From: Carnegiea gigantea | Taxonomy: Eukaryota > Streptophyta > Magnoliopsida > Caryophyllales > Cactaceae | Direction: 5' to 3' | NCBI GenBank assembly: GCA_029747015.1 | Contig: JAKOGI010000825.1 | Location: forward strand, 312,001-376,000 | Length of the DNA: 64,000 nt | Shown here: positions 29,327 to 61,140 of the stretch, piece after piece | Layout of the letters: every line of letters starts with the position of its first letter | Numbering within the stretch: position 1 is the stretch's first letter | Program-made: the position numbers and the translations under genes | Notes under the pieces: model-generated | What the model was told of the DNA's origin: nothing | The model's database searches: none | What the model saw: the letters and a program-made list of their open reading frames with translations, nothing else

Positions 29327-29339
29327 CCACGGTCCGTGG
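29327..29339. repeat. GC-rich palindrome in the Athila internal spacer
   Basis: CCACGGTCCGTGG, near-identical to the palindrome in both Athila LTRs (22537-22549, 35533-35545) and embedded in similar flanking words (ATGGTTGGAC-GTGGTG). Copying between LTR and internal spacer, or a shared structural signal, would explain it. Confidence 0.7.
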
Positions 29340-29728
29340 TGACCTGCTATGACCCATGGTCAAGGGTTTTGATTGTGGTGACCCTTCAATTTTTCCCAAC
29401 TCATCTTCTTCTTCGAAGATCCTTCTCTCTCGGCCTCCATTTTCTCCCTCGAAACCTCCATAACTAACACCTTGAATCCTACCTTATTTCTTCTCATTGT
29501 TCACCCATTTTCACTCAAAATTCATCCTTTTCACTTAAACTTCCTTTTTCTTCCACAGATTTCATCTCTTTCTTCTTCTTTTTCTTCAAATCATCTCACC
29601 TTCACTCATCCACCATAACCATCTTTTTCTCTCTCTAATTCTTCTTCTTTTTGCTTAAAATCTTCATTTTTCTTCCTCAAATTTTCTTATTTAGGTTTTA
29701 GTTTTAGTTTTTGTTTCAATTTGCAATA

Positions 29729-31015
29729 ATGGCACCAACCATAAGACAAAGGAGTATTAACAAAGTTGGATCCTCAAGTCAAGCACCAACCCGATCTTGA
29801 AAGACATCCCAAACCTCCACCAATATGAGTGCTCAAGGTACCATTCCTCGCCCCTTGGTTTAATGAATCTTGATCATGTTGCTAGATATAACTATTTGAA
29901 TGAACACATGGTTGTAGCAAGTGGATTTGTTAGCTCGATTGGGCATGTTAGATGACATTAGGTGGTTGTTTGCACGAGGTGGTATGGGACACTTTATAGA
30001 AATAAAAAAGCATACCAACCGAGACCTGACCTTAGAGTTCTTGAGTACACTCTATGTTACAGTCACTAGAGGGCCTCAATGTTAAGCCGAGTACATATCG
30101 TTTTATTTTCAAGGACAATTATACGAATTGAACTTAGGTACCTTCAACGGCATAATCGGTTTTGCACCTAGTATGGATTTACCAAACCAATAAGTCCCCC
30201 ACGAATTCAACCCAAATGTATTTTGGGGTGAGCTTTTGGGGAGTGTCAGGTATAGCACTAGTTCATCAAAGTGCACACATATTAGGAACCCCAACATTAG
30301 AGTAGCTCAGCCTATCTTGGCTTGCTGTTTCTTTTCTCGGGTCGATAGTCTGAATGTCCTGAGATTGTCTGAGTTGTACTTCTTGTCCTATATGCTTGAC
30401 GTGTCCAGCTTGACCCCGGTTCATTTTTGGCTAGGCAATTATATAGTGTTGCTATTAGCACTAAGGGGAGGATAGTCATAGGTGGTATTGTAACTACTAT
30501 TGCAAGATTTTTGGGTGTTGAGCCCAATCTTGAGGATAGAGTTTCTGGGTCCGAGCAGCTTGATCAAGCTGCCTTTGAAATTATGAACTTTTGTAAAGTT
30601 AAGGTTGGGCATTTGTGCTGGATTTAACCTAGGAATCGGCCTTTGCCGCTTCCTAATGTTGATCGAACCACCTTACTTCACCAAACTAACCTTTATTAGG
30701 TACCTGGTGATACTGAGGTTGATCAACCTGTACCTCATCATCCAGCCCCTCATTCTAGTCCAGCCCCTCCTCACTACACCGACCTCTAAGACACCCATAG
30801 ATCCATCCAAGAAGAGCAACTTTCCCTCCGAGCTTTTGTTGCTTCTAAGAACTCCGCTCTTAGGGAATTTGTTCAAGAGCGCCACAATGAGCTTTGTAGG
30901 ATGCTTGCCACCCAGACTCAAAATTTCCAGGACTATAGGGCATGGTTAGAGACCTGGCGAGTTTGGCATATCTCTTATGGCCAACCAACCCCTCCTCCTT
31001 CTCCACCTCCTTTCT
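29729..31015 (+). pseudogene. Athila 3' ORF (env-position / ORF-1-like protein), degraded
   Basis: It starts at ATG 29729 (MAPTIRQRS) after a long CT-rich leader (about 29391-29700). Readable blocks are LDDIRWLFARGG, LEFLSTLYVT, FYFQGQLYELNLGTFN, VFWGELLG, SKCTHIRNPNIRVAQPILA, LNVLRLSELYFLSYM and GGIVTTIARFLGV. The pattern RNPxxRxAxxxLA with a following SELxFL block is seen in the Athila/plant retrotransposon 3' ORF often called ORF-1 or env-like. No membrane segment or signal peptide is evident, so the name reflects position only. Stops and frame changes (e.g. 29798, 30075, 30192, 30473) inactivate it. Confidence 0.65.
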
Positions 31016-31085
31016 GATTGTTTTGTGCTACTCCCCTTCCATTTTTCTCTTATGTGCCCACATTGAGGGCAATGTGTGATTCAAG

Positions 31086-31097
31086 CATGGGGGAGTT
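31086..31097 (+). other. Internal polypurine-tract-like sequence
   Basis: CATGGGGGAGTT follows the phrase ATTGAGGGCAATGTG. It is a better purine tract than the one next to the 3' LTR. Athila-type elements often carry such a tract after the 3' ORF. Confidence 0.5.
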
Positions 31098-31912
31098 AGT
31101 CGTTATATTTGGCGTTTGATGCCTGATTTGGTTTGGTGTGCTTGTGTTTTGTATATGTTATTTGTGATAGTTTTTGTAGTTTTTGTTTTAGGTTTTAGTT
31201 TTATTTAGCAGTATTTTAGGAGTACATTTAACTTTTCTTTTCATTCTAGGTTGCATTTTAGTTTTTCTTTTATTGATTTATTTTGTATTTTAGTTTGCAT
31301 TGTTATTAGGAGCATCCATGAAAAAACAAACATACAAAAAAAAAAGTTGAAAAAATTGAAAAAACAAAGAAGCAAAAATCCTCCGATGATGATCTTTCTA
31401 GACTAGGTAGACTTATTTGGTTTAGTTTGATCCTTCAATTCGCCCAATTGTGTATAAAATATTTGAGAATGAGTTTGCGAAAATGAGCTCCATGTTTTGA
31501 CCCATGTTAAGTGAGAGTTTATTACCCCAAGAGTCTTTACATGAATTTTAGCATGTGTTTACGAATGAGCTAGTTATGACCTTGGTAGATGTCCCGTGAG
31601 GCTTTGAGCTTTTAAAGACTATTTATCAATTCAGTCTCATGTTTCTTTCATGTGTGACTCTTCCTTGACATCATTTCTCTAGAACTTGCTTTGATTTTCA
31701 TTCATGATCACATTTCACAAAAGCATTTAGGCAATACGATTGAGATATTTTTCTTTGATTTGTTAAACCCAATGGCCCAATAGCCACCTTTGTTATATAT
31801 TATATCCCTTGCTAGCCCCTTTGAACCTATATTCATTTTTCTTGATTTGAACTTCCTATTGTAGCTTATGGCCAAATGATTATCTTACCCTTGAAGCCAA
31901 GACTACATGAGC

Positions 31913-31917
31913 GTTTC
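31913..31917. repeat. Left target-site duplication of the nested solo LTR (GTTTC)
   Basis: GTTTC directly before TGTTAAG. It matches 34288-34292 exactly. Confidence 0.82.
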
Positions 31918-34287
31918 TGTTAAGTCATAATTCATGGATGTTTTTAACAATTAATTTGATTATATTATATATATTATTTTATCTAATTTACTTTATTTTA
32001 TATATTTTTTAGGTAAAGCATTAATAAAGAAAGAGGAAAAAAGAAAACATCAAAGTTTAGGTTTTATTTACTGAAGGATTTTACAAGCGAATTTATCAAG
32101 TCGGTCCAAAAAATAATGAATTATGAAAAATATTAGTTTCATAATGATTTATTTAGGCTATAGTTACAAGATTACTACTCCTAATTAAAGAAGAATTAGG
32201 AGACTTGGAGAAGAAGACATCCTGCAAGAAAAGAAAACCCTAGAAATATTATGCTATTAAAACCCTCCTTCACGTCAAAACCTCACGCCATCACTGCAGA
32301 ATAATCACGTTCAGCCTCCTCCTTTTCTCCACCTCCTCCTATTATCCTCATAATCTCCATCATCATCATAATCAGCCTCACCACCAACACCTTCGTCACC
32401 TCATTTTGTGCCTAATTATCAACTTCATCACCCAATCACCACCAGTTACGCTAATCTTCACCATCACATGCCCAATTATCTTCATGCCTAACTGTCCATC
32501 ATCACCACACACCCCCCACCACTTCTTCATCATCATCATTAATCATCATCCCATATCATCACCATCATCATCAGCTATCATAATATTGTCAAAGTAATAT
32601 TGTTTCTTTTTTTTTCTCTTTTATTTTATTAGTTTAGTGTTAAACATGATTTATTTAGGTAATTTAGGTACTTTAATTTATAATATATGTGTGTAATTTC
32701 CTTGTATTTAGTATAAGCTATTTGAAACCATGCTAAATTAATTATTTTGAAACAAGTTTTATGCTTTATTGTCTAGTTGATTTTTATTCTATAATTCTAT
32801 AATGATTAGTATTTATTGTTTATGATATTCGCATTAGATTAATCGGAAAGCATGCTAATTAGTTTAATACGAATTCATATGATAGTTTAAAAGGCTTTAA
32901 TATGTAAAAGTTATAGTCTTTTAGGCATTAGTGTCACCATAATTGATCATGGATGGCTCAAACCCATCTCTTTTAATTAGATAATCATTATAGATCTTTG
33001 TTAAATCAATTTTCCGATAAATTGGTTACAAGGCATTAGATAATGTTTTTCTAATAGTTAATGCTCTGGTTTGATTAAATTCTTGCGCTGGTGTTAGGAT
33101 TATCAAAACTAGTAGGTTTATATTAGGGCTTGACCTAAATAAACTATAATATGAGGTAAAATAGGGAAGATCCACTAGTGGGTATCTTCTATAGTCTAAC
33201 TCATGGATAGGTCAATTGGTGTGTTTATGATAAATATTAATTTGCATGATGGATATAGATTATGCTAAGTAATTTTCATAAATTTGGTATCTTTGATAAT
33301 TATCTGTTACTTTTTAGTTAATTTCTTTAGTTTGTCAATTTTAATTCTTAAATTTATAGGTTTTAATATAAATTTCATTTACTCCCCCCAAAATAGTAGT
33401 CTTTTAGGGTGTCTTAGTGATTTTAGATTAGTTATATTTTGGTTTTTACTGTGATTAAAATTTTCAGATTTATTTTCTATTCTACTTTGTCATTTATTTA
33501 CCGGTTTGTTAGAAAGTAGGCTAAAAATAGCTCCTTTTGTGTTTTTTCGTGTTTTATTCCATTTTAGGGTTTATATAGTATCCTAAGCTGCCTTCATTTA
33601 ATTTTGGAATATTCAAAAATTATTTGATAATTATTCAGAATTATTTCATGAATTGGATATGTACAGGTTTTTATTTTAATAAATCTGAAAATTATGTTTT
33701 TAATTTTTAGTGTTAGTTTTTAGGGTTTTATTTAGTATATAAAATTATATTTTAAAATCTGGGTATTTTGTTATTTATTATTGTATTTATATTAGTGCAT
33801 TTTAATTTTCTGTGGTTGAATTTTTGTTTCATTTTTTTTTTTTGAATTTAATTACATATAATATTGAAGATATAAAGTTATAAACTTGCAAAATATTAAT
33901 TTAGATTACTTTATGTGATTTTTAATATTAATTTTCTGCTTGTTATTTTCTATTTTAATTTTCAGTCTAATATTATGTGATTATTTCTGTTTTTATTTTT
34001 CCAGAATATTTAAGATAACTATTTACTATTTTCATTTCCAGAATTAAATTTAGAATATTTAGCGGCAATATTAAGTAATTTTTCTAGATTTTTACTCATT
34101 TAATTTGATTTGTTTTAGTAATATAAGGAGAAAGTAAAATAAATTAGAGTAGTAAAGTTAATTAGAATTAAACTAGCTTATTATCATAATCTTTACTTGT
34201 GGAATCGATCCATACTTTCCTATACTATAAATCTAAATTATAAATCAAAGTAGTGGTTTAATTTGTAACTGTGTGACAAGCTTTACA
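31918..34287. mobile_element. Nested solo LTR of an unidentified LTR retrotransposon
   Basis: 2,370-bp A+T-rich insert beginning TGTTAAG and ending CTTTACA. The ends are inverted copies at six of seven bases with TG...CA termini, and the insert is flanked by exact GTTTC duplications. It has no coding frame. A CAT/CAC-rich stretch (about 32290-32590) and a phrase GTGGAATCGATCCATAC near the right end resemble LTR interior sequence. Removing it with one GTTTC leaves continuous Athila spacer (ATGAGC-GTTTC-ATTCTTTTGC). Lack of any internal domain or second LTR indicates a solo LTR produced by LTR-LTR recombination. The family is unknown, and the orientation is not firmly established. Confidence 0.75.
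32290..32595 (+). repeat. CAT/CAC-rich low-complexity stretch
   Basis: Dense CATCATCAT, CACCAC and CCTCCT words within the solo LTR, just after a TATTAAAACCC promoter-like phrase. Probably LTR leader sequence rather than coding. Confidence 0.6.
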
Positions 34288-34292
34288 GTTTC
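34288..34292. repeat. Right target-site duplication of the nested solo LTR (GTTTC)
   Basis: GTTTC directly after CTTTACA. It matches 31913-31917. Confidence 0.82.
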
Positions 34293-35216
34293 ATTCTTTT
34301 GCATCAAGTTTGATTTGGGAGCTAGAAAGGAGAGTTGAGATCTTTTAGGGGATTTTGGTTGTTTGGTAAAGGGATGTCTAATCTTGATTGATAAAAAGGA
34401 AATCTCTTGTCTTATTATACAAAGTTTAGAGAAGAGTTGGAATTTAAAGATCATTATGGATTTCCCTTGGCTAACTCTTTTGAAAAAAAACACAAAAAAA
34501 AAACAAAAATAAGAGAAAAAGAACACAAAAAAAGGGGGAAAAAAAGAGAGAAAAGAAAAGTGACTAAGAAAGAGAGTACTAGCCTTGTTGGAACTGTAAA
34601 TTTTTACGATTTTTCAACTCTTTGTCTCATTATTGGGGATTTATTTTGTTGCTAAATTGTATTGGTTTAAGGAGGATGTTATAATGGTCCATTGGAAACA
34701 TGTAGCTCTTAGTCTATGGCTTCTAGCTCTTTATTTCCAAAACATTTGTTCCCCGACCTCTCACCTTTACTAATGGCCCGATTTCCACCCTATGAAAATC
34801 CTCATGATTGTCTAGTGTGTTTGCATGTTAGTGACGGCAAATTTTAGAGTCTTATCAAGCTTAAGGTAGATTTCAGTATGGGAATTAGAATTGAGGGAAC
34901 CTTTATATTTTTTTCAAACACATGAATGATGAGTGCTACATAACTATAGTGAGGTTCTACCGACCTTACTAGCATCATTTGTTTCATATGTTGAAAAACT
35001 GTATTTGATGATTTTGGGATATTGATTCAAATTTGGCATTGTGGTCTATCAAGTGGTTTTCAAAAAATTTCATTCCCTAGTCTGGTTGCTAATAGTTTTT
35101 ACATCTTTTTGGGCTACCTTTGGATCAATTTTTCCATTAGAATATTACCTATATCTATCCTGTGGAGGTTGTATATATTTTTGGTTTTGGCATTGCTTGA
35201 GGACAAGCAATAATTT

Positions 35217-35231
35217 AAGCATAGTGGAGTT
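35217..35231 (+). other. Polypurine tract of the Athila element (degraded)
   Basis: AAGCATAGTGGAGTT sits against the 3' LTR and follows the phrase TTGAGGACAAGCAA common to this group. Two G of the usual GGGGGAGTT are lost. Confidence 0.65.
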
Positions 35232-36477
35232 TGATAAGTACTTAATACATACACTATTTTTGGGCCATTTTACCACATTTTTTAGGAGAATTATGTGCTT
35301 TAAGCTACTATTGACACTCCTTTTCTCGATTTATGCTTGGGTATGGTTGTTTGATGTATTTTGCAGAATTTTAGGCCTCTTTACCTAGCATTTGACCCTC
35401 ATTGACGTATTTTGACCCTCATTGATGTATTTTGACCTACCCCACGGACACCCATGTGATGCTACGCCCATGGAGCAGGACAAGAGCAGAAAATCGGTTC
35501 GAGCCAAGACCACGGTTGAATCGAGGTACCTACCACGGACCGTGGTGAGCGATGAAACTATTGCATCTTTGTCTTCCTTCGACTGTGTGGTTGAAAACAT
35601 CCAAGCTTCACTATAAAAGCCTCATCATTCAGCAGTAAAGAAGAGAGGAAGCATAGCATAGTTCACTTTCTTTAACAAAATTTTGCTCTTTTTAGTTAAG
35701 ATTTTTAGTTATTGTTTTAGTATGGAATCTTGAGTGTGTTTGGTTTTGAGGCAGTTTAAAATCCTTGGTTGAAGGTTGTCTCTGTCAAGCCCTTTCTCTC
35801 AGATTTCATCGAATTGTTGGTTAGTTGTTTAATCTTTAACCATGTGTGAGTAGTTTATTTTTGTCTAGGGATTTGTTAGTTTATGAAAGTGTAGTTGCAT
35901 CATGTTTTAATCAACATGTTTCATGATTAGTTTGATTTCGTTCTATCAAGTGATTACCATGCTGTGAGTGTATTTTTGACCAAATTTTGCTTGCACACTT
36001 GAAACAATTTAGTGAAAAACTAAAAGGTGACATTTGATTGTTAGACTGCTTAATAAAACTTGCCGAATCGAAAGAGAGATTTGCACATTGGGAGGATTAG
36101 AGTGTAATTGAAAATATTCAACTTGGATTAAGAAAAAATAGTTTGAAAGAACGACTTTTGCCTCGTTTAGGCAAGTTTGGCTGATTTTGAAAGAATAGAC
36201 TAGATTTTTTGATAGACTGTAACTCCTTGAAATTAAACGATTAGAGAAAAGCACATGTTTATCATTTTGATCCAATCAACTTTCATAACTACATAAATTC
36301 CTAGGCATTTTTCCTTAATTTATTTAGATTAGTAAATTTGACGTCGTTGAATCAAAACCCCTTGATTTAGTATTTGCTTAGCATATTCTGATAGACAAAG
36401 CCCGATATATTACTTTAATCCCTGAGGACAATCTTTTATCTATACTATGACTACCAGTGTGCTTGCAGCAGTGGTCA
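35232..36477 (+). repeat. Athila 3' LTR
   Basis: 1,246 bp from TGATAAGTACTTAATAC to GCAGCAGTGGTCA, the partner of 22255-23503. The palindrome is conserved at 35533-35545. Confidence 0.92.
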
Positions 36478-46400: not shown

Positions 46401-46405
46401 CTACA
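46401..46405. repeat. Left target-site duplication of the LTR array (CTACA)
   Basis: CTACA precedes the first LTR. CTATA (61136-61140) follows the last; they differ by one transition. No such duplication separates the inner units. Confidence 0.75.
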
Positions 46406-48106
46406 TGATGGAGGTCTGGTGGTCATCCCTCGCTTCCAGAATGTTTAGGCAAGAACCAAAAATCAAAACAAGCCTAGACATCAAAATACACCATGCTGCC
46501 ACGTCAGATTGAATTTTACCGTGAAATCTAGTTATGGTCACCCAATTTTGGGGTGACTTAAGTCCTTAATTTGGTGTTCTCATAAACCCTAGGATGTTAG
46601 GTTTCTAATAAAACAAGTTTGAGCCTCATTGGAGTTCATTTGCTCATCCAAAACCTATGTCTAAGGCAAACTGCCCTGAAGACAGTTTACGTCTAGATTT
46701 TACCCGGTCTTTGAGATTACATCTCTTAATCTTTCATAAGGTTTAAGTGTCCAATTTTTGCATCCCTGAAAATCTTAAAATCTTAGCTTTCATTTCCAAT
46801 TGGAATTACCAGATTTGGAGTTCAATTGGTTAGTGAATTTAGCTAATTAGTAAACCTGTGCTGTTTTGAAATCCAATCTGCATGGTTTGGGAAATCAGAC
46901 TGATTCAAGGGGCAAATGACGTCCAAATGGTATGATTCAAAAAGAAGGGTAATATAGACATCTTGAGGTTTCCATCCATGGAAGAAACATAGCAATTAGT
47001 CCGCATTTGATGTGTCAAGCATGTGTGACAAATTGAGGCAGAAACTAGCTGATTGACACCCGGTTACTTAGCCTAGTAGTTTTCCTCCTTCAAGGGGTTT
47101 ACTTAAGGTGTAAGCTTGCCTACTTGGTCAACTTGAGGTGCTTGGTAAGCTGCCACTTAGCCACATAGGAGTGAGACACGTGGAAGCATGAAGAAGAAGA
47201 CATTTTGCGAGCATATATTCAGCCACCACCAACACACATGTCAAGCTCGAATTCAACAGCCTTTTGCTAGGTGGCAGCCGTGTATCTTTGCCCTCTAAGG
47301 AAGGAAAATAAGTCATAATTATGCCTTAGATATTAAGCAAGGTCTTAGGATAAGTAAACTTGTGTATTAAGCTTGATTATACCGGTTTTACTTTGTTTTA
47401 GTTTAAACCTTGTATAAGTGTGCTTAGCTAGACTAATACCTTTCCTCCCTTAGAGGGAAAGGTTGTTTCATGACTTTAGTGGCTATATAAGGCCGTGTAC
47501 TTCTCACTTCATCAATCAGATTTTGAGCTTAAAACTTTGAGAAAAGACTTTGTGTCTTGAGTTCCTCTTAAACACTTAACTTGCTTATCCTTAATTAGGC
47601 CGATTAAGGTGGTGTTCAAGGAAGTCTTAATCATTGAATAGGTGGTGTATCGGTATCCTAATCAAAGGTTAAGGGCCCTAAGCTAGGTGATTGGTGGTGT
47701 GTCTTATCTAATCACAAAGCTTAGAACTATCCTAAACACATTGAATTCACTTAAAGTTCATAAAGCTAGCTTTTGGATTCCTTAAACTATGAGCTCTCTT
47801 TTCTGTTCTAATCAGTGAACTTCTCATTCTTTTCATTCCACACATTTCCTACCCTTTCTCATACTCTTTTCAGGTTTAATCAAGGCCAAGACTTCTTGCT
47901 TTGATTCAGTTTTCAGCCTAAACATAAATCCACTTCAAACCAACAGAAGTCACAAATTTCAGGCGTGCAAGGCAGAATTTTGGCACGGCCATATCGTGTC
48001 CTTAAGCACGGCCGTGCGTCCTTGAGTTCATGAGTTTTCCATTTGATTTGATTGTGTTCTTGTTGTAAGTTAGCTTGGGTTGTTCCTACCCTGGAGACTT
48101 ACATCA
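46406..48106 (+). repeat. Array LTR 1
   Basis: 1,701 bp, TGATGGAGG to TTACATCA. TATA-like box at 47484-47490. Palindrome GCACGGCCGTGC at 48006-48017. Its middle third shares the GCCACATAGG and CAGCCGTG variants with LTR 3. Confidence 0.93.
47484..47490 (+). promoter_or_regulatory. TATA-like box of array LTR 1 (also in LTRs 2-5)
   Basis: TATATAAGG at the same place in every LTR (50743, 53986, 57255, 60513). A CT-rich TTCTCACTTCATCA start-like region lies about 20-25 bp downstream. Likely the retrotransposon promoter; not tested. Confidence 0.5.
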
Positions 48107-48110
48107 ATTT

Positions 48111-48122
48111 TGGTATCAGTCC
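48111..48122 (+). other. Primer-binding site, array unit 1 (altered)
   Basis: TGGTATCAGTCC, four bases after LTR 1. Compared with TGGTATCAGAGC of the Met-tRNA site it has two changes. Confidence 0.75.
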
Positions 48123-48216
48123 AAGTTGATCCTTGCTTGGAACCTACCACACGCCTTTCCCAGCTTATCTCTGAATCTAAAACTCAAACACAATCCTGTT
48201 CGTCCAAATTTCCAAC

Positions 48217-49447
48217 ATGAGTTCTAGCATGACCATGGAAGAGAAACTTGAAGCAATGGCCAAACAAATGCACAAAATTTCTATATCCAATCAAGAACTC
48301 AAGGCTCGAAATGAGTACTTGAGAAAACAGCTTGGAAACCACATGAAACAAAAACAAAAGCTTCAAGAAGACAGTGAACGAATTGGAACACATTATGAAG
48401 GAGAAGAGGAAGCTAGCAATGCATTATCTTTCTCTGATGATGAAGTATCATTCGAGAGGACAAGAAGAGGGGTACGGCTTACTTTCAACTCAAATGATTT
48501 CAAAGTTGAAATTCCTGAGTCTGAAGGTAAGCTAGACCCAGATGAATTCCTTGAATGGTTATAAACTGTTGAGCGGATTTTCAAGTACAACGAGATTCCA
48601 GAGAACTAGAGAAAGAAAGAGTAAGATCAATACTTGGGACAAGTTGAAATCTAAGATGAAGACACGGTTCTTGCCGTCCACTTATGTCCAAGACAATTAC
48701 ATGCTCTTTCACCATCTCACTCAAGGCAAAATGAATGTGGAAGAATACACACGTGAGTTTGAGAAACTCATGATTAAATGTGACATTCATGAGCTTGAAG
48801 AACAAACCATGGTTCGTTACCTAGGAGGGCTTGATCCTAAGATAGCTAACGTGGTTGAATTGCAAGCCTTCACCACTTTTGATAAGATTTGTGTCCTAGC
48901 TCACAAAGTGGAACAACAAAGAAGGTCACGATTTCATACCCGTGAAGAAGTTCCCACATTCCTTCCTCAAGAACAACCATTCAACAAGGGGAGCCCAAAC
49001 CTTGTCCCTAAACCCATGGCCCCCCCACTTCCTACTCCACAAAAGAACCAAACACCACTACAAAGCCTACCCCCGCAACTTAAACCCAAGCATGGCACTT
49101 CCCGATGTTTTAAGTGCCAAGGATTTGGACACATAGCCGCCGATTGTGTCAATCGAAGAAGCATTACTCTGGCTGAGTGGGAGGCAATTGGAAAGGAAGA
49201 AAAGGAGGAAGAAACTCAAGAAGAAGACCTTGAAGAAATTGAGATCACTGCTGATGAAGGCGAAATGCTACTCTTGGAGAAGATGTCTCCAAATTTTCAT
49301 AAAGAAGAGCATGAACAACATATGAATATTCATGTTTGTATGTTAGTCATTCAAACAGAGCAAGACCCTACCCTATCATTTCCCATCAAACCCATTCCAT
49401 TCATCTCCATCCAGGATCTCTCATGCTCAGGTCCTAAACTTGCTTAA
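48217..49447 (+). pseudogene. Gag of array unit 1 (two overlapping frames)
   Basis: Frame 1 starts at ATG 48217 (MSSSMTMEEKLEAMAKQ). It encodes a predicted coiled coil (NQELKARNEYLRKQLGNH) and the SEGKLDPDEFLEWL block that opens the retrotransposon gag capsid domain. A TAA at 48562, unique to this copy, ends it; the stop common to all copies is at 48607-48609. Frame 2 (48542-49447) carries the rest of the capsid domain (TWDKLKSKMK, MNVEEYTREFEKLM, VRYLGGLDPKIANVV), a proline-rich linker, zinc knuckle CFKCQGFGHIAADC and an acidic tail. Between the frames about 25 residues normally linking the two capsid halves are missing. Frame 2 stays open to its end. No pol follows; the purine tract AACAAGGGGAGAA reaches LTR 2. 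Confidence 0.85.
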
Positions 49448-49663
49448 TTTACTCCCCCAAAGCAAAATCCAAACCCACCCCCCATCCATTCATTCCAACA
49501 CCCACTTAAGTTTCACATGGCTGATGTAAGGAATACGGAAGCAAAGTTTAAACCAAGCTTATTTGAAGAGTTGATCCTTTTTCAGCCTAGTTCACCTTTG
49601 TTTGCTTTTGGGCAGTACGTCCTTGGTGAATTTGAGGATAAATTCTTCTCAACAAGGGGAGAA

Positions 49664-51350
49664 TGATGGAGGTCTGGTGGTCATCCCTCACTTCCAGAAT
49701 GTTTAGGCAAGAACCAAAAATCAAAACAAGCCCAGACATCAAAATACACCATGCTACCACGTCAGATTGCATTTAATCGTGAAATCTAGTTATGGTCACC
49801 TAATTTTAGGGTGACTTAAGTCCTTAATTTTGGTGTTCTCATAAACCCTAGGATGTTAGGTTTCTAATAAAACAAGTTTTAGCCTCATTGGAGTTCATTT
49901 GCTCATCCAAAATCTATGTTTAAGTCAAACTGCCCTGAAGACAGTTTACATCTAGATTTTACCCAGTTTTGGAGATTACATTTCTTAATCTTCCATGAGG
50001 TTTAAGTGTCCAATTTTTGCATCCCTGAAAAGCTTAAGATCTTAGCTTTCATTTTCAATTGGAATTACTAGATTTGGAGTTCAATGGTTTAGTGAATTTA
50101 GCTAATTATTAAACCTGTGCTGTTTTGGAGTCCAATCTGCACGGTTTGGGAAATCAGACTGATTCAAGGGGCCAATGATGTCCAAATGCTATGATTCAAA
50201 AAGGAGGGTAATATAGACATCTTGAGGTTTCCATCCATGTAATAAACATAGCAATTAGTCCGCATTTGATGTGTCAAGCATGCGTGACAAGTTGAGGCAG
50301 AAATTGGCTGGTTGACACCCGGTTACTTAGCCTAGTAGTTTTCCTCCTTCAAGGGGTTTACTTAAGGTGTAAGCTTGCCTACTTGGTCAAATTGAGGTGC
50401 TTGGTAAGCTGCCACTCATCCACATAGGAGTGAGACACGTGGAAGCATGAAGAAGAAGACATTTTGCAAGCATATCTTCAGCCACCGCCAACACACATGT
50501 CAAGCTCGAATTCAGTAGCCTTTTGCTAGGTGGCAGCTGTGTATCTTTGCCCTCCAAGGAAGGAAAATGAGTCATAATTATGCCTTAGATATTAAGCAAG
50601 GTCTTAGGATAAGTAAACTTGTGTATTAAGCTTGATTGTACCGGTTTTACTTTGTTTTAGTTTAAACCTTGTATAAGTGTGCTTAGCTAGACTAATACCT
50701 TTCCTCCCTTAGAGGGAAAGGTTGTTTCATGACTTTAGTGGCTATATAAGGCCGTGTACTCCTCACTTCATCAATCAGATTTTGAGCTTAAAACTTTGAG
50801 AAAAAACTTTGTGTCTTGAGTTCCTCTTAAACACATAACTTGTTTGTCCTTAATTAGGCCGATTAAGGTGGTGTTCAAGTGAGTCTTAATCATTGAATAG
50901 GTGGTGTAAAGGTTAAGGGCCCTAAGCTAGCTGATTGGTGGTGTGTCTTATCTAATCACAAAGCTTAGAACTATCCCAAACACATTGAATTCACTTAAAG
51001 TTCATAAAGCTAGCTTTTGGATTCCGTAAACTATGAGCTCTCTTTTGTGTTCTAATCAGTGAACTTCTCATTCTTTTCATTCCACACATTTCCTACCCTT
51101 TCTCATACTCTTTTCAAGCTTAATCAAGGCCAAGACTTCTTACATTGATTCAGTTTTTAGCCCAAACACAAATCCACTTCAAACCGTGAGAAGTCATAAA
51201 TTTCAGGCATGCAAGGCAGAATTTTGGCACGGCCATATCGTGTCCTTAAGCACGGCCGTGCGTCCTTGAGTTCGTGAGTTTTCCATTTGATTTGATTGTG
51301 TTCTTGTTGTAAGTTAGCTTGGGTTGTTCCTACCCTGGAGACTTACATCA
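49664..51350 (+). repeat. Array LTR 2
   Basis: 1,687 bp. A deletion of roughly 15 bp near 50908 removes part of the GTATCGGTATCCTAATC phrase present in LTR 1. TATA-like box at 50743-50749, palindrome at 51250-51261. Confidence 0.93.
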
Positions 51351-51354
51351 ATTT

Positions 51355-51366
51355 TGGTATCAGAGC
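51355..51366 (+). other. Primer-binding site, array unit 2
   Basis: TGGTATCAGAGC, four bases after LTR 2; intact Met-tRNA type. Confidence 0.85.
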
Positions 51367-51460
51367 AAGTTGATCCTTGCCTGGAACCTGCCACACGCCT
51401 TTCCCAGCTTCTCTCTGAATCTGAAACTCAAACACAATCCTGTTCGTCCAAATTTCCAAC

Positions 51461-52690
51461 ATGAGTTCTAGCATGACCGTGGAAGAGAAACTTGAAGCAA
51501 TGGCCAAACAAATGCACAAAATTTCTATATCCAATCAAGAACTCGAGACTCGAAATGAGTACTTGAGAAAACAGCTTGGAAACCACATGAAACAAAAACA
51601 AAAGCTTCAAGAAGACAGTGAACAAATTGGAACACGTTATGAAGCAGAAGAGGAAGCTAGCAATGCATTATCTTTCTCTGATGATGAAGTATCATTTGAG
51701 AGGACAAGCAGAGGGGTACAGCCTACTTTCAACTCAAATGATTTCAAAGTTGAAATTCCTGAGTCTGAAGGTAAGCTAGACCCAGATGAATTCCTTGAAT
51801 GGTTACAAACTGTTGAGCGGATTTTCAAGTACAAGGAGATTCCAGAGAACTAGAGAAAGAAAGAGTAAGATCAATACTTGGGACAAGTTGAAATCTAAGA
51901 TGAAGGCACGGTTCTTGCCGTCCACTTATGTCCAAGACAATTACATGCTCTTTCACCATCTCACTCAAGGCAAAATGAATGTGGAAGAATACACACGTGA
52001 GGTTGAGAAACTCATGATTAAATGTGACATTCATGAGCCTGAAGAACAAACCATGGTTCGTTACCTAGGAGGGCTCGATCCTAGGATAGCCAACGTGGTT
52101 GAATTGCAAGCCTTTACCACTTTTGATGAGATTTGTGTCCTAGCTCACAAAGTGGAACAACAAAGAAGGTCACGATTTCATACCCATGAAGAAGTTCCCA
52201 CATTCCTTCCTCAAGAACAACCATTCAACAAGGGGAGCCCAAACCTTGTCCCTAAACCCATGGCCCCCCACTTCCTACTCCACAAAAGAACCAAACACCA
52301 CTACAAAGCCTACCCCCGCAACTTAAACCCAAGCATGGCATTTCCCAGTGTTTTAAGTGCCAAGGATTTGGACACATAGCCGCCGATTGTGTCAATCGAA
52401 GAAGCATTACTCTGGCTGAGTGGGAGGCAATTGGAAAGGAAGAAAAGGACGAAGAAACTCAAGAAGAAGACCTTGAAGAAATTGAGATCACTGCTGATGA
52501 AGGCGAAATGCTACTCTTGGAGAAGATGTCTACAAATTTTCATAAAGAAGAGCATGAACAACATACGAATATTCATGTTTGTATGTTAGTCATTCAAACA
52601 GAGCAAGACCCTACCCCATCATTTCCCATCAAACCCATTCCATTCATCTCCATCCAGGATCTCTCATGCTCAGGTCCTAAACTTGCTTAA
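51461..52690 (+). pseudogene. Gag of array unit 2
   Basis: Frame 1 runs 51461-51853 (130 codons) to the stop shared by all units just after EIPEN. Frame 2 opens at 51786 with the second capsid half. It is lost at a C run near 52265 (one C fewer than in unit 1) and ends at 52379. The original frame with the zinc knuckle continues behind the shift, and its acidic tail can be read to 52690. The capsid gap is the same as in unit 1. Primer site intact; purine tract ATAAGGGGAGAA. Confidence 0.85.
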
Positions 52691-52906
52691 TTTACTCCCC
52701 CAAAGCAAAATCCAAACCCACCCCCCATCCATTCATTCCAACACCCACTTAAGTTTCACATGGCCGACGTAAGGAATACGGAAGCAAAGTTTAAACCAAG
52801 CTTATCTGAAGAGTTGATCCTTTTTCGGCCTAGTTCACCTTTGTTTGCTTTTGGGCAGTACGTCCTTGGTGAATTTGAGGACAAATTCTTCTCAATAAGG
52901 GGAGAA

Positions 52907-54632
52907 TGATGGAGGTCTGGTGGTCATCCCTCACTTCCAGAATGCTTAGGCAAGAACCAAAAATCAAAACAAGCCTAGACATCAAAATACACCATGCTGC
53001 CACGTCAGATTGCATTTAATCATGAAATCTAGTTATGGTCACCTAATTTTGGGGTGACTTAAGTCCTTACTTTTGGTGTTCTCATAAAACCTAGGATGTT
53101 AGGTTTCTAATAAAACAAGTTTGAGCCTCATTGGAGTTCATTTGCTCATCCAAAACCTATGTTTAAGTCAAACTGCCCTGAAGATAGTTTACGTCCAGAT
53201 TTTATCCGGTATTTGAGATTACATTTCTTAATCTTCCATGAGGTTTAAGTGTCCAATTTTTGCATCCCTGAAAAGCTTAAGATCTTAGCTTTCATTCCAA
53301 TTGGAATTACCAGATTTGGAGTTCAATTGGTTAGTGAATTTAGCTAATTAGTAAACCTATGCTGTTTTGGAGTCCAATCTGCACGGTTTGGGAAATCAGA
53401 CTGATTCAAGGGGCAAATGACGTCCAAATGCTATGATTCGAAAAGGAGGGTAATCTAGACATCTTGAGGTTTCCATCCATGTAGGAAACGTAGCAAGTAG
53501 TCAGCGTTTGATGTGTCAAGCATGCGTGACATGTTGAGGTAGAAACTGGCTGGTTGACACCCGGTTACTTAGCCTTGTAGTTTTCCTCCTTCAAGGGGTT
53601 TGCTTAAGGTGTAAGCTTGCCTACTTCGTCAAAATGAGCTGCTTGGTAAGCTGCCACTCAGCCACATAGGAGAGAGACATGTGGGAGCATGAAGAAGAAG
53701 ACATTTTGCAAGCATGTATTCGACCACCACCAACACACATGTCAAGCTCGAACTCAGCAGCTTTTTGCTAGGTGGTAGCCGTGTATCTTTGCCCTCCAAG
53801 GAAGGAAAATGAGTCACAATTATGCCTTAGATATTAAGAAAGGTCTTAGGATGAGTAAACTTGTGTATTAAGCTTGATTGTACCGGTTTTACTTTGCTTT
53901 AGTTTAAACCTTGTATAAGTGTGCTTAGCTAGACTAATACCTTTCCTCCCTTAGAGGGAAAGGTTGTTTCATGACTTTAGTGTGCTATATAAGGCCCGTG
54001 GACCTTCTCACGTCATCAATTCAGGATTTTAGTAGCTTAAAACTTGAGAAAAGACTATTGTGTCTGAGTTTCTCTCTTAAACACTTAACTTGTCTTTCCT
54101 TAATTAGGTGACCGATTAAGTGTGGGTGTTCAAGTATACAGTCTTTAATCTTGATATGTAGGTGGTGTGTGTGTGTATCCTAATCGAAAGGTTAAGGGCC
54201 CTACACGCCTCAGTGATTGGTGGTGTGTCTTATCTAATCACAAAGCTTAGAACTATCCCAAACGCATTGAATTCACTTAAAGTTCATAAAGCTAGCTTTT
54301 GGATTCCTTAAACTATGAGCTCTCTTTTCTGTTCTAATCAGTGAACTTCTCATTCTTTTCATTCCACACATTTCCTACCCATTCTCATACTCTTTTCAAG
54401 TTTAATCAAGGCTAAGACCTCTTGCTTTGATTCAGTTTTTGGCCCAAACACAAATCCACTTCAAACCGTGAGAAGTCACAAATTTCAGGCGTGCAAGGCA
54501 GAATTTTGGCACGGCCATATCGTGTCCTTAAGCACGGCCGTGCATCCTTGAGTTCGTGAGTTTTCCATTTGATTTGATTGTGTTCTTGTTGTAAGTTAGC
54601 TTGGATTGTTCCTACCCTGGAGACTTACATCA
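52907..54632 (+). repeat. Array LTR 3
   Basis: 1,726 bp, the longest copy because of many small insertions between 53983 and 54215. TATA-like box at 53986-53992, palindrome at 54532-54543. Its right 400 bp look identical to the right end of LTR 5. Confidence 0.93.
53983..54215. other. Indel-dense stretch in LTR 3
   Basis: Relative to the other four LTRs this 230-bp interval has a dozen or more one- to four-base insertions and deletions (e.g. TGTGCTATAT for TGGCTATAT, AGGCCCGTGGACC for AGGCCGTGTAC, a GTGTGTGTGT expansion), while sequence on both sides agrees closely. This looks like unpolished long-read error or a mis-assembly. Confidence 0.6.
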
Positions 54633-54636
54633 ATTT

Positions 54637-54648
54637 TGGTATCAGAGC
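54637..54648 (+). other. Primer-binding site, array unit 3
   Basis: TGGTATCAGAGC, four bases after LTR 3; intact. Confidence 0.85.
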
Positions 54649-54742
54649 AAGTTGATCCTTGCTTGGAACCTACCACACGCCTTTCTCAGCTTATCTCTGA
54701 ATCTGAAACTCAAACACAATCCTGTTCGTCCAAATTTCCAAC

Positions 54743-55976
54743 ATGAGTTCTAGCATGACCATGGAAGAGAAACTTGAAGCAATGGCCAAACAAATGCACA
54801 AAATTTCTATATCCAATCAAGAACTCAAGGCTCGAAATGAGTGCTTAAGAAAACAGCTTGGAAACCACATGAAACAAAAACAAAAGCTTCAAGAAGACAG
54901 TGAACGAATTGGAACACGTTATGAAGGAGAAGAGGAAGCTAGCAATGCGTTATCTTTCTCTGAAGATGATGAAGTATCATTCGAGAGGATAAGAAGAGGG
55001 GTACGGCCTACTTTCAACTCAAATGATTTCAAAGTTGAAATTCCTGAGTCTGAAGGTAAGCTAGACCCAGATGAATTCCATGAATGGTTACAAACTGTTG
55101 AGCGGATTTTCAAGTACAAGGAGATTCCAGAGAACTAGAGAAAGAAAGAGTAAGATCAATACTTGGGACAAGTTGAAATCTAAGATGAAGGCACGGTTCT
55201 TGCCGTCCACTTATGTCCAAGACAATTACATGCTCTTTCACCATCTCACTCAAGGCAAAATGAATGTGGAAGAATACACACGTGAGTTTGAGAAACTCAT
55301 AATTAAATGTGACATTCATGAGCCTGAAGAACAAACTAAGGTTTGTTACCTAGGAGGGCTTGATCCTGGATAGCCAACGTGGTTGAATTGACGCCTTCAC
55401 CATTTTTTGATGAGATTTGTGTCTTTAGCTCGCAAAGTGGAACAACAAAGAAGATCCGATTTCATACCCATGAAGAAGTTCCCACATTCCTTCCTCAAGA
55501 ACAACCATTCACACAAGGGGAGCCCAAACCTTGTCCCTAAACCCATGGCCCCCCCACTTCCTACTCCACAAAAGAACCAAACACCACTACAAAGCCTACC
55601 CCCGCAACTTAAACCCAAGCATGGCACTTCCCGATGTTTTAAGTGCCAAGGATTTGGACACATAGCTGCCGATTGTGTCAATCGAAGAAGCATTACTCTG
55701 GCTGAGTGGGAGGCAATTGGAAAGGAAGAAAAGGAGGAAGAAACTCAAGAAGAAGACCTTGAAGAAATTGAGATCACTGCTGATGAAGGCGAAATGCTAC
55801 TCTTGGAGAAGATGTCTCCAAATTTTCATAAAGAAGAGCATGAACAACATACGAATATTCATGTTTGTATGTTAGTCATTCAAACAGAGCAAGACCCTAC
55901 CCCATCATTTCCCATCAAACCCATTCCATTCATCTCCATCCAGGATCTCTCATGCTCAGGTCCTAAACTTGCTTAA
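54743..55976 (+). pseudogene. Gag of array unit 3
   Basis: Frame 1 is 54743-55138 (131 codons, one extra acidic residue after FSE) with the shared stop. Frame 2 begins at 55071 but breaks at 55373 inside a stretch dense in small indels (55336-55513). It resumes at about 55407 and runs to 55976 through the zinc knuckle and acidic tail. The end of the internal domain is shortened to GAGGGGGGAGAG before LTR 4. The breaks here may be sequencing error rather than real mutation. Confidence 0.82.
55336..55513. other. Indel-dense stretch in gag of unit 3
   Basis: Six or more small differences in under 180 bp (AACTAAGGTTTG, CCTGGATAGCC, TTGACGCC, CCATTTTTTG, GTCTTTAGC, AGATCCG), against near-identity outside. 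Same pattern as 53983-54215. Confidence 0.55.
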
Positions 55977-56174
55977 TTTACTCCCCCAAAGCAAAATCCA
56001 AACCCACCCCCCATCCATTCATTCCAACACCCACTTAAGTTTCACATGGCTGATGTAAGGAATACGGAAGCAAAGTTTAAACCAAGCTTATTTGAAGAGT
56101 TGATCCTTTTTCAGCCTAGTTCACCTTTGTTTGCTTTTGGGCAGTACGTCCTTGGTGAATTTGAGGGGGGAGAG

Positions 56175-57877
56175 TGATGGAGGTCTGGTGGTCATCCCTC
56201 ACTTCCAGAATGTTTAGGCAAGAACCAAAAATCAAAAACAAGCCTAGACATCAAAATACACCATGCTGCCACGTCAGATTGCACTTAACCATGAAATCTG
56301 GTTATGGTCACCTAATTTTGGGGTGACTTAAGTCCTTACTTTTGGTGTTCTCATAAACCCTAGGATGTTAGGTTTCTAATAAAACAAGTTTCAGCCTCAT
56401 TGGAGTTCATTTGCTCATCCAAAACCTATGTTTAAGTCAAACTGCCCTGAAGACAGTTTACGTCTAGATTTTACCCGGTTTTTGAGATTACATTTCTTAA
56501 TCTTCCATGAGGTTTAAGTGTCCAATTTTTGCATCCCTGAAAAGCTTAAGATCTTAGCTTTCATTTCCAATTGGAATTACCAGATTTGGAGTTCAATGGG
56601 TTAGTGAATTTAGCTAATTATTAAACCTGTGCTGTTTTAGAGTCCAATCTGCACGGTTTGGGAAATCAGACTGATTCAAGGGGCCAATGATGTCCAAATG
56701 CTATGATTCAAAAAGGAGGGTAATATAGACATCTTGAGGTTTCCATCCATGTAATAAACATAGCAATTAGTCCGCATGTGATGTGTCAAGCATGCGTGAC
56801 AAGTTGAGGCAGAAATTAGCTGGTTGACACCCGGTTACTTAGCCTAGTAGTTTTCCTCCTTCAAGGGGTTTACTTAAGGTGTAAGCTTGCCTACTTGGTC
56901 AACTTGAGGTGCTTGGTAAGCTGCCACTCATCCACATAGGAGTGAGACACGTGGAAGCATGAAGAAGAAGACATTTTGCAAGCATATCTTCAGCCACCGC
57001 CAACACACATGTCAAGCTCGAATTCAGTAGCCTTTTGCTAGGTGGCAGCTGTGTATCTTTGCCCTCCAAGGAAGGAAAATGAGTCATAATTATGCCTTAG
57101 ATATTAAGCAAGGTCTTAGGATAAGTAAACTTGTGTATTAAGCTTGATTGTACCGGTTTTACATTGTTTTAGTTTAAACCTTATATAAGTGTGCTTAGCT
57201 AGACTAATACCTTTCCTCCCTTAGAGGGAAAGGTTGTTTCATGACTTTAGTGGCTATATAAGGCCGTGTACTTCTCACTTCATCAATCAGATTTTGAGCT
57301 TAAAACTTTGAGAAAAAACTTTGTGTCTTGAGTTCCTCTTAAACACATAACTTGTTTGTCCTTAATTAGGCCGATTAAGGTGGTGTTCAAGTGAGTCTTA
57401 ATCATTGAATAGGTGGTGTATCTGTATCCTAATCAAAGGTTAAGGGCCCTAAGCTAGGTGATTGGTGGTGTGTCTTATCTAATCACAAAGCTTAGAACTA
57501 TCCCAAACACATTGAATTCACTTAAAGTTCATAAAGCTAGCTTTTGGATTCCTTAAACTATGAGCTCTCTTTTCTGTTCTAATCAGTGAACTTCTCATTC
57601 TTTTCATTCCACACATTTCCTACCCTTTCTCATACTCTTTTCAAGTTTAATCAAGGCCAAGACTTCTTGCTTTGATTCAGTTTTTAGCCCAAACACAAAT
57701 CCACTTCAAACCGTCAGAAGTCACAAATTTCAGGCGTGCAAGGTAGAATTTTAGCACGGCCATATCGTGTCCTTAAGCATGGCCGTGCGTCCTTGAGTTC
57801 GTGAGTTTTCCACTTGATTTGATTGTGTTCTTGTTGTAAGTTAGCTTGGGTTGTTCCTACCCTGGAGACTTACATGA
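56175..57877 (+). repeat. Array LTR 4
   Basis: 1,703 bp. Its last bases read CATGA where the others have CATCA, so the terminal dinucleotide is mutated. TATA-like box at 57255-57261. The GC-rich palindrome is broken by one change (GCATGGCCGTGC). Confidence 0.92.
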
Positions 57878-57881
57878 ATTT

Positions 57882-57893
57882 TGGTATCAGTGC
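57882..57893 (+). other. Primer-binding site, array unit 4 (altered)
   Basis: TGGTATCAGTGC, one change from the intact site. Confidence 0.75.
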
Positions 57894-57987
57894 AAGTTGA
57901 TGCTTGCTTGGAACCTACCACACGCCTTTCCCAGCTTATCTCTGAATCTAAAACTCAAACACAATCCTATTCGTCCAAATTTCCAAC

Positions 57988-59218
57988 ATGAGTTCTAGCA
58001 TCACCATGGAAGAGAAACTTGAAGCAATAGCCAAACAAATGCACAAAATTTCTATATCCAATCAAGAACTCAAGGCTCGAAATGAGTACTTAAGAAAACA
58101 GCTTGGAAACCACATGAAACAAAAACAAAAGCTTCAAGAAGACAGCGAACAAATTGGAACACGTTATGAAGGAGAAGAGGAAGCTAGCAATGCATTATCT
58201 TTCTCTGATGATGAAGTATCATTCGAGAGGACAAGAAGAGGGGTACGGCCTACTTTCAACTCAAATGATTTCAAAGTTGAAATTCCTGAGTCTGAAGGTA
58301 AGCTAGACCTAGATGAATTCCTTGAATGGTTACAAACTGCTGAGCGAATTTTCAAGTACGAGGAGATTCCAGAGAACTAGAGAAAGAAAGAGTAAGATCA
58401 ATACTTGGGACAAGTTGAAATCTAAGATGAAGGCACGGTTCTTGCCGTCCACTTATGTCCAAGACAATTACATGCTCTTTCACCATCTCACTCAAGGCAA
58501 AATGAATGTGGAAGAATACACACGTGAGTTTGAGAAACTCATGATTAAATGTGACATTCATGAGCCTGAAGAACAAACCATGGTTCGTTACCTAGGAGGG
58601 CTTGATCCTAAGATAGCTAACGTGGTTGAATTGCAAGCCTTCACCACTTTTGATGAGATTTGTGTCCTAGCTCACAAAGTGGAACAACAAAGAAGGTCAC
58701 GATTTCATGCCCGTGAAGAAGTTCCCACATTCCTTCCTCAAGAACAACCATTCAACAAGGGAAGCCCAAACCTTGTCCCTAAACCCATGCCCCCCCCACT
58801 TCCTACTCCACAAAAGAACCAAACACCACTACAAAGCCTACCCCCGCAACTTAAACCTAAGCATGGCATTTCCCAATGTTTTAAGTGCTAAGGATTTGGA
58901 CACATAGCCACCGATTGTGTCAATCGAAGAAGCATCACTCTGGCTGAGTGGGAGGCAATTGGAAAGGAAGAAAAGGAGGAAGAAACTCAAGAAGAAGACC
59001 TTGAAGAAATTGAGATCACTGCTGATGAAGGCGAAATGCTACTCTTGGAGAAGATGTCTCTAAATTTTCATAAAGAAGAGCATGAACAACATACGAATAT
59101 TCATGTTTGTATGTTAGTCATTCAAACAGAGCAAGACCCTACCCCATCATTTCCCATCAAACCCATTCCATTCATCTCCATCCAGGATCTCTCATGCTCA
59201 GGTCCTAAACTTGCTTAA
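57988..59218 (+). pseudogene. Gag of array unit 4
   Basis: Frame 1 is 57988-58380 (130 codons) with the shared stop. Frame 2 starts at 58313 and ends at 58891, where TGC-TAA replaces TGC-CAA inside the zinc knuckle and cuts it after CFKC. The remaining tail is open to 59218. The capsid gap is the same as in the other units. Primer site has one change; purine tract AACAAGGAGAGAA. Confidence 0.84.
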
Positions 59219-59434
59219 TTTACTCCCCCAAAGCAAAATCCAAACCCACCCCCCATCCATTCATTCCAACACCCACTTAAGTTTCACATGGCCGATGTAA
59301 GGAATACGGAAGCAAAGTTTAAACCAAGCTTATTTGAAGAGTTGATCCTTTTTCAGCCTAGTTCACCTTTGTTTGCTTTTGGGCAGTACGTCCTTGGTGA
59401 ATTTGAGGACAAATTCTTCTCAACAAGGAGAGAA

Positions 59435-61135
59435 TGATGGAGGTCTGGTGGTCATCCCTCACTTCCAGAATATTTAGGCAAGAACCAAAAATCAAAACAA
59501 GCCTAGACATCAAAATACACCATGCTGCCACGTCAGATTGCATTTAACCGTGAAATCTAGTTACGGTCACCTAATTTTGGGGTGACTTAAGTCCTTACTT
59601 TTGGTGTTCTCATAAACCCTATGATGTTAGGTTTCTAATAAAACAAGTTTGTGCCTCATTGGAGTTCATTTGCTCATCCAAAACCTATGTTTAAGTCAAA
59701 CTGCCCTGAAGACAGTTTACGTCTAGATTTTATCCGGTTTTTGAGATTACATTTCTTAATCTTCCAAAAGGTTTAAGTGTCCAATTTTTGCATCCCTGAA
59801 CAGCTTAGATCTTAGCTTTCATTTCCAATTGGAATTACCAGATTTGGAGTTCAATGGGTTAGTGAATTTAGCTAATTATTAAACCTGTGCTGTTTTGGAG
59901 TCCAATCTGCACGGTTTGGGAAATCAGACTGATTCAAGGGGCCAATGACGTTCAAATGCTATGATTCAAAAAGGAAGGTAATATAGACATCTTGAGGTTT
60001 CCATCCATGTAATAAACATAGCAATTAGTCCGCATTTGATGTGTCAAGCATGCGTGACAAGTTGAGGCAGAAATTGGCTGGTTGACACCCGGTTACTTAG
60101 CCTAGTAGTTTTCCTCCTTCAAGGGGTTTACTTAAGGTGTAAGCTTGCCTACTTGGTCAAATTGAGGTGCTTGGTAAGCTGCCACTCATCCACATAGGAG
60201 TGAGACACGTGGAAGCATGAAGAAGAAGACATTTTGCAAGCATATCTTCAGCCACCGCCAACACACATGTCAAGCTCGAATTCAGTAGCCTTTTGCTAGG
60301 TGGCAGCTGTGTATCTTTGCCCTCCAAGGAAGGAAAATGAGTCATAATTATGCCTTAGATATTAAGCAAGGTCTTAGGATAAGTAAACTTGTGTATTAAG
60401 CTTGATTGTACCGGTTTTACTTTGTTTTAGTTTAAACCTTGTATAAGTGTGCTTAGCTAGACTAATACCTTTCCTCCCTTAGAGGGAAAGGTTGTTTCAT
60501 GACTTTAGTGGCTATATAAGGCCGTGTACTCCTCACTTCATCAATCAGATTTTGAGCTTAAAACTTTGAGAAAAAACTTTGTGTCTTGAGTTCCTCTTAA
60601 ACACTTAACTTGCTTATCCTTAATTAGGCCGATTAAGGTGGTGTTCAAGTGAGTCTTAATCATTGAATAGGTGGTGTATTTGTATCCTAATCAAAGGTTA
60701 AGGGCCCTAAGCTAGGTGATTGGTGGTGTGTCTTATCTAATCACAAAGCTTAGAACTATCCCAAACGCATTGAATTCACTTAAAGTTCATAAAGCTAGCT
60801 TTTGGATTCCTTAAACTATGAGCTCTCTTTTCTGTTCTAATCAGTGAACTTCTCATTCTTTTCATTCCACACATTTCCTACCCATTCTCATACTCTTTTC
60901 AAGTTTAATCAAGGCTAAGACCTCTTGCTTTGATTCAGTTTTTGGCCCAAACACAAATCCACTTCAAACCGTGAGAAGTCACAAATTTCAGGCGTGCAAG
61001 GCAGAATTTTGGCACGGCCATATCGTGTCCTTAAGCACGGCCGTGCATCCTTGAGTTCGTGAGTTTTCCATTTGATTTGATTGTGTTCTTGTTGTAAGTT
61101 AGCTTGGATTGTTCCTACCCTGGAGACTTACATCA
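59435..61135 (+). repeat. Array LTR 5
   Basis: 1,701 bp. Middle section (about 60000-60580) follows LTR 2; right section (about 60720-61135) follows LTR 3. TATA-like box at 60513-60519, palindrome at 61035-61046. Confidence 0.93.
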
Positions 61136-61140
61136 CTATA
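61136..61140. repeat. Right target-site duplication of the LTR array (CTATA)
   Basis: Follows the CATCA end of LTR 5. Partner of CTACA at 46401-46405 with one transition. Confidence 0.75.

Follow-up and report, generated by a model that had tools for sequence, protein, structure and literature searches.

The 64,000-bp stretch of the Carnegiea gigantea genome that we analysed here (C825:312001-376000, hereafter the window) contains a tandem array in which five long terminal repeats (LTRs) alternate with four internal domains of a Ty3/gypsy retrotransposon devoid of pol. The four units come from one element, which inserted once at this site, and the array probably arose when the LTR-internal unit of that single pol-less insertion was multiplied in place by unequal crossing-over. 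It was compared with related sequences in the 1.135-Gb assembly (5575 contigs).

Self-alignment and a repeat finder agreed on an array extending over 46406-61135, which starts and ends with an LTR, and the five LTRs, four internal domains and period near 3.26 kb described in an earlier note on this DNA were all recovered. The LTRs are 1.69-1.73 kb long, the internal domains 1.54-1.56 kb, and the LTR start-to-start distances are 3258, 3243, 3268 and 3260 bp. As that note had also reported, a target-site duplication (TSD) is located at the outer edges only; its two copies, CTACA and CTATA, are identical in 4/5 bases, and random 5-mer pairs from the flanks reach at least 4/5 matching positions in 2.4% of draws. 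Inspection of the inner junctions for target duplications revealed none, because the end of the internal domain and the primer-binding site (PBS) region directly abut each inner LTR: the polypurine tract (PPT) region adjoins it on the 5′ side and the PBS region on the 3′ side, with no gap. Unit 3 has an altered PPT, and units 1 and 4 an altered PBS; the PBS sequence of units 2 and 3 is TGGTATCAGAGC, which we take to be of the tRNA-Met type.

The internal domains hold gag remnants with Retrotrans_gag (PF03732), Ty3_capsid (PF19259) and zinc knuckle domains, and these Ty3-type gag and capsid domains assign the units to Ty3/gypsy. Pol is absent from all four internal domains, again in line with the earlier note, and the resulting layout of LTRs and a gag region without pol (internal domain 1.56 kb in the window) is that of TR-GAG elements. 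The term "gag-only" used in that note suits the family, of which pol-less copies occur elsewhere, but not the coding state of the array, since the same frame shift breaks gag in all four units and no single intact gag frame was found. A search for relatives of this gag in viral contigs and plasmids gave none.

The frame shift results from a deletion: 77 bp that are present in the copies at C662, C484, C367 and C2836 are missing. A 201-bp probe spanning the deletion junction gave a one-piece match only in the four window units, among the best 40 of 1171 candidates; at the other 36 scored loci it matched in two pieces (35 loci) or in one half only (C294). Moreover, eight internal domains at C726 keep 65-73 bp where the window units have the deletion. 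All units carry the deletion, and none of the other scored loci has its junction in one piece; they therefore derive from one element at this site, which, together with the outer-only TSD, indicates a single insertion. The four window internal domains also jointly differ from C662 at 31+7 sites (unpolarised), with 13 more sites in the larger internal piece following other sharing patterns, and a tree of their 5′ part unites them in a clade that excludes C662 and three other copies (support 0.989).

How such an array can grow was observed at C726:214001-274000 (L029-L034), where three related loci lie within 55 kb. The interpretation of this stretch as one 50-kb array was rejected, as reading it resolved array A, array B and a single element C (Table 1). 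In array B, whose first LTR is without its last ~57 bases, the same foreign element occupies the same site in two LTRs, as a solo LTR in LTR 2 and as a 6.8-kb copy in LTR 4, and the junctions of both show the same GGTTG duplication. The blocks 237644-245409 and 251082-258768 show 95.0% identity over 7768 aligned positions, and in the LTR tree of array B LTR 2 pairs with LTR 4 (0.993) and LTR 3 with LTR 5 (0.976). The shared site of the foreign element and the pairing of the LTRs are as expected from a two-unit unequal exchange that took place after the foreign insertion; array B thus grew by in-place duplication, in the very manner that the earlier note had proposed for arrays of this kind. 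Furthermore, the flanks of element C match those of array B (253846-262880 vs 264898-274000, 96.0%; 230890-234335 vs 263093-266523, 96.1%), so that the two loci represent one duplicated insertion site, at which array B has five internal domains and element C, which may be either the original form or a contracted one, has a single one.

The family is abundant, with 2994 first-look candidates in the genome for the LTR probe. A complete two-LTR copy at C662 (L024/L025), with LTRs 97.6% alike and the TSD CATTG, has an undeleted internal domain of ~1.63 kb, a length also found at C726, which is interrupted by a different, nested 6.9-kb element with its own TSD GGGTG. We considered and rejected the possibility that these 6.9 kb between the C662 internal pieces were the pol region, as the insert has opposite-strand frames, LTRs 98.9% alike and its own TSD. 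The pol-less form therefore belongs to the family and not to the window copy alone, and the C726 units are likewise pol-less. One copy at C662 and one at C726 have an open capsid part, but the zinc knuckle at C662 is in another frame. C367 (L026) holds a longer relative, in which gag, RNaseH and integrase domains were identified and whose LTRs are 92-93% alike over positions 365-1701; it is a candidate source of proteins for the pol-less elements, which may have been mobilised in trans.

On these bases, the history of the array could be outlined as follows. One pol-less Ty3/gypsy copy, with LTRs of ~1.7 kb and an internal domain of ~1.63 kb holding the gag region only, would have inserted once, presumably mobilised by proteins supplied in trans, and produced the 5-bp target duplication. 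This copy would have carried, or soon acquired, the gag-breaking 77-bp deletion. Its LTRs would then have mispaired, either between homologues or between sister chromatids, and this would have led to unequal crossing-over, by which the LTR-internal unit may have been multiplied in place to four early in the life of the insertion, probably by the same kind of exchange that is seen at C726. The units would subsequently have accumulated differences, while patches of the LTRs were later made alike by gene conversion or by homogenisation in the assembly.

The divergence among the units bears on the time of formation. LTR2, LTR4 and LTR5 are mutually 2.2-2.5% different, LTR1 differs from those three by 3.9-4.6%, and LTR3 from every other window LTR by 5.4-7.1%. 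The internal domains differ by 2.2-3.6% and are about equidistant (1.9-2.7%) when two odd patches of internal domain 3 (INT3; alignment columns 755-775 and from 1534) are left out. When LTR1, 2, 4 and 5 were polarised with the C662 LTRs as outgroup, we counted 51 common differences and 35, 15, 9 and 15 private ones, respectively, with 16 further sites showing other sharing patterns; the private changes of the 3′ LTR region number 8, 6, 4 and 6. From this near-star divergence, the units would date from the insertion or from shortly afterwards, before the LTRs had become different, and the sequences suggest an early, near-simultaneous formation followed by patchy homogenisation of parts of LTR2, 4 and 5. 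LTR2 equals LTR5 over 628 sites and LTR3 equals LTR5 over its last 420 sites (each 0/2000 permutations), tracts that may reflect gene conversion or assembly homogenisation. A late crossing-over turning LTR2 and LTR4 into left-right hybrids was also considered, on the basis of an unpolarised count (Fisher p=0.04), and was rejected as zero supporting sites were found with the C662 outgroup.

Several observations weigh against multiplication of the window units in place. With the C662 outgroup, ten sites join LTR2, 4 and 5, all within LTR positions 422-1281, no site groups LTR1, 2 and 4 against LTR5, and the mark of late crossing-over between diverged LTRs is absent from the array. In the 3′ LTR region, the divergence of the outer pair is similar to that of the inner pairs, so the array may have formed at insertion itself. 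In addition, C726 represents another subfamily, with 82-84% identity to LTR5 in its LTRs and, in its internal domains, 74-83% in the 5′ third and 95-97% in the remainder; it speaks for the window array by analogy, which lowers our confidence. Even in array B, the internal-domain tree is without the two-unit pattern: internal domain B4 is drawn towards array A and looks mosaic, and B2 groups weakly with B3 (0.571), a discord that we read as conversion but that counts against a clean picture. Finally, LTR3 is a possible assembly join. The star-like divergence of the LTRs, with no change common to LTR1, 2 and 4, and the equidistance of the internal domains would also be expected if a ready-made multimer had been inserted in one integration, starting from a read-through transcript or a recombined cDNA (one-LTR circles, template switching). 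A 2025 survey of plant tandem LTR retrotransposons leaves the mechanism of multimer insertion open (PMC11899658), and multi-unit transcripts of Cassandra are reported (PMC7215508). However, no multimeric source with the 77-bp deletion was found among the best 40 of the 1171 candidates of the junction probe, and the C726 duplication postdates the insertion of the foreign element into the LTR, which a cDNA multimer cannot explain, albeit in another subfamily; we thus regard insertion of a multimer as rather unlikely for the window.

The concern about LTR3 is that the number of units might be inflated, or two shorter tandem stretches stitched together inside this repeat. At 53984-54215, LTR3 has 12 insertion events relative to LTR5 in ~206 sites, while 28 other aligned copies have at most 2, and 39 other scored matches to this stretch are 81-83% alike, with none above 83%; it looks like uncorrected long-read sequence. 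A possible RNA structure in this stretch was rejected, as folding hardly beats shuffles (z -0.24 for LTR5, -0.81 for LTR3). In region trees (FastTree, midpoint-rooted), all five window LTRs form a clade in regions 1-262, 262-500 and 1282-1701 (0.92, 0.87 and 0.95), whereas at positions ~500-1074 the other four form a clade that excludes LTR3 (0.974); this mosaic, including the tract identical to LTR5, could stem from either ectopic conversion or a chimeric join. Beside it, INT3 has lost 18 bp, including part of the PPT, and contains a small patch near 55368-55458 in which 1-bp indels and other differences are clustered. By contrast, the 77-bp deletion is found in the units to the left and to the right of LTR3, and we therefore regard the array as real; the outer flanks show a near-matching TSD; LTR1, 2, 4 and 5 and the internal domains are distinct at 2-5%, and units differing by ~2-7% are not a single unit copied by the assembler; arrays of similar size exist at C726 (five internal domains) and C285 (three read, continuing). 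Distinctly unlikely as a faulty join is on this evidence, the five LTRs are the count of the assembly and the exact length is provisional, as LTR3 and the INT3 patches resemble assembly error. That separate insertions of the family landed side by side or nested is hardly credible: nothing was found in favour, though the family is abundant, and inner target duplications are absent, neighbouring units have LTRs in common and the deletion of all units is present at no other scored locus. We therefore favour a single insertion followed by unequal crossing-over in place.

Related tandem arrangements are not uncommon in this genome, as emerged from a search for LTR-internal-LTR-internal-LTR loci of the type that the earlier note had envisaged, which recovered, for instance, array B of C726. 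The PPT/LTR junction gave 133 genome matches (≤2 mismatches; reversed control pattern 0) and the LTR/PBS junction 1041 (≤2 mismatches); the counts that follow are lower bounds, based on 100 listed matches for each junction. Among those of PPT/LTR, pairs of same-strand units at a distance of 2.7-3.5 kb occur in 13 of 87 clusters, against 1, 1, 0 and 0 pairs in four control spacing bins, which gives at least 12 loci with units one period apart, including the window and array B. The listed LTR/PBS matches, all exact, give such pairs in 8 of 92 clusters, at no fewer than 7 loci (controls 0, 0, 1, 0). An internal-domain probe (best 40 of 306 candidates) adds C3693 and C2164; these, together with C2208, C87, C264, C662:335-345k and other spaced loci, are known from spacing alone. 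At C285:322001-332000 (L035), an array of a related family has a period of ~2.87 kb and internal domains of 1.1 kb; the 10 kb read hold three internal domains and four LTRs, one of which is truncated where the sequence read stops, and junctions continue on both sides. Compared with the C1390 copy L009, its LTRs are 76-78% and its internal domains 85% alike. The view of the earlier note that arrays this long are uncommon is thus not supported, given the loci with one-period spacing, the longer C726 array (6 LTRs) and reports from other plants (PMC11899658, PMC7215508, PMC4528315). Its suggestion of an early stage of satellite formation finds partial support in the homogenised patches and in the duplication of two units at C726. 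However, all arrays that were read are short (at most five internal domains): four in the window, five at C726 and three read at C285, and none reaches satellite length.

Table 1. Coordinates of the array in the window and of the related loci at C726 (positions of the window, unless preceded by C726)
Feature	Position	Strand	Remarks
Left target-site duplication CTACA	46401-46405	.	
LTR1	46406-48106	+	1701 bp, TG..CA
Internal domain 1 (INT1)	48107-49663	+	1557 bp; altered PBS, broken gag, PPT
301-aa open frame, 3′ part of broken gag	48542-49447	+	Retrotrans_gag 1.1e-13, Ty3_capsid, zinc knuckle
Approximate 77-bp deletion junction, unit 1	48599-48604	+	Frame shift; same junction in units 2-4
LTR2	49664-51350	+	1687 bp; private deletion of ~15 bp
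Internal domain 2 (INT2)	51351-52906	+	1556 bp
LTR3	52907-54632	+	1726 bp; mosaic
LTR3 stretch with 12 short insertions	53984-54215	+	
Internal domain 3 (INT3)	54633-56174	+	1542 bp; odd patch near 55368-55458; 18-bp deletion at PPT
LTR4	56175-57877	+	1703 bp; ends CATGA
Internal domain 4 (INT4)	57878-59434	+	1557 bp; altered PBS
LTR5	59435-61135	+	1701 bp
Right target-site duplication CTATA	61136-61140	.	One mismatch to left CTACA
C726 array A	C726:215834-224183		3 LTRs/2 internal domains; TSD GGTTC on both sides
C726 array B	C726:232699-258791		6 LTRs/5 internal domains; perfect TSD CCAAG on both sides
C726 element C	C726:264900-269910		Single LTR-INT-LTR; flanks CCAAA/CCAAG

Elsewhere in the genome, three LTRs (L017, L020 and L021) have the same or nearly the same difference counts relative to LTR5, with 19.5% at LTR positions 500-1074 but no more than 4-5% over the 206 sites that follow, as though family LTR ends had been joined to a foreign upstream half. 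At L022 (C536:170001-180000) we observed several LTRs of the short-internal family of L009 type, with a truncated copy beside a complete one and fragments between them. The window itself holds other repeats. A young, complete-looking Ty1/copia element at 692-5647, with ATGAA on both sides, has one 1520-aa open frame with gag, integrase and reverse transcriptase domains; its 236-bp repeat pair (689-924 and 5412-5647, including a few bases beyond the LTRs) is 99.6% alike. An old LTR pair at 22255-36477 (22255-23503 and 35232-36477, 84% alike and ~13 kb apart) encloses an integrase zinc-binding piece at 27518-28135 and shows no clear target duplication; within its span, 24165-24270 on the minus strand matches the plant small nucleolar RNA R71 (Rfam snoR71), which marks the stretch as nuclear DNA of a plant.

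Tandem LTR retrotransposons of plants are already published, and the window array adds one member to them. The survey mentioned above could not separate the insertion of multimers from later growth (PMC11899658), a question that C726 answers for one locus, because there the foreign element was copied with its unit and the duplicated site holds a single element. In the open-access literature, searched with a few word combinations in titles and abstract openings, no description of a foreign insertion copied within such an array was found. Loci with one (C662, C726), two (C726), four (window) and five (C726) internal domains could allow growth towards a satellite to be followed and dated. The array-prone, pol-less gypsy families of this genome might even be becoming satellites now, as the in-place unequal exchange, the two-unit higher-order repeat of C726 and the similar array at C285 hint, but we advance this only tentatively and would not count on it; if true, single copies, short arrays and the expanded paralog of one site would form a time series of satellite birth.

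Among known systems, the closest are the tandem structures of the same survey, described there as common and polymorphic in plants and mostly Ty3/gypsy, which, like the window array, have alternating LTRs and internal regions, shared inner LTRs and an outer-only TSD, and are read as single insertions; the locus TLI2 has two internal regions, and all 28 selected rice tandems hold conserved retrotransposon protein domains (PMC11899658). By comparison, the window array has four internal domains, is pol-less with a broken gag, and has a related locus that was duplicated after a nested insertion. The layout LTR-int-LTR-int-LTR-int-LTR-int-LTR and the non-autonomous nature are shared with Cassandra, a terminal-repeat retrotransposon in miniature (TRIM) whose arrays reach 13 LTRs and 12 internal domains in long PCR, but Cassandra is tiny, with 5S sequence in short LTRs and no gag (PMC7215508), whereas the window units have 1.7-kb LTRs and a gag remnant; the tandem arrangements of the maize TRIM Wukong also concern a miniature element, unlike that of the window (PMC4528315). 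In maize, CRM1TR and CRM4TR are likewise tandem repeats made from Ty3/gypsy elements, with gene conversion named as the main cause of their variation, but their monomers derive from parts of the LTR and untranslated region (PMC3648361), while the window units are whole LTR plus internal domain. A TR-GAG element, which similarly consists of LTRs and a gag coding region without pol, has transposed in Arabidopsis (PMC8704663); in the window, gag is frame-shifted in 4/4 units. Lathyrus satellites arose by a different route, from short tandem arrays inside LTR retrotransposons (PMC7004042).

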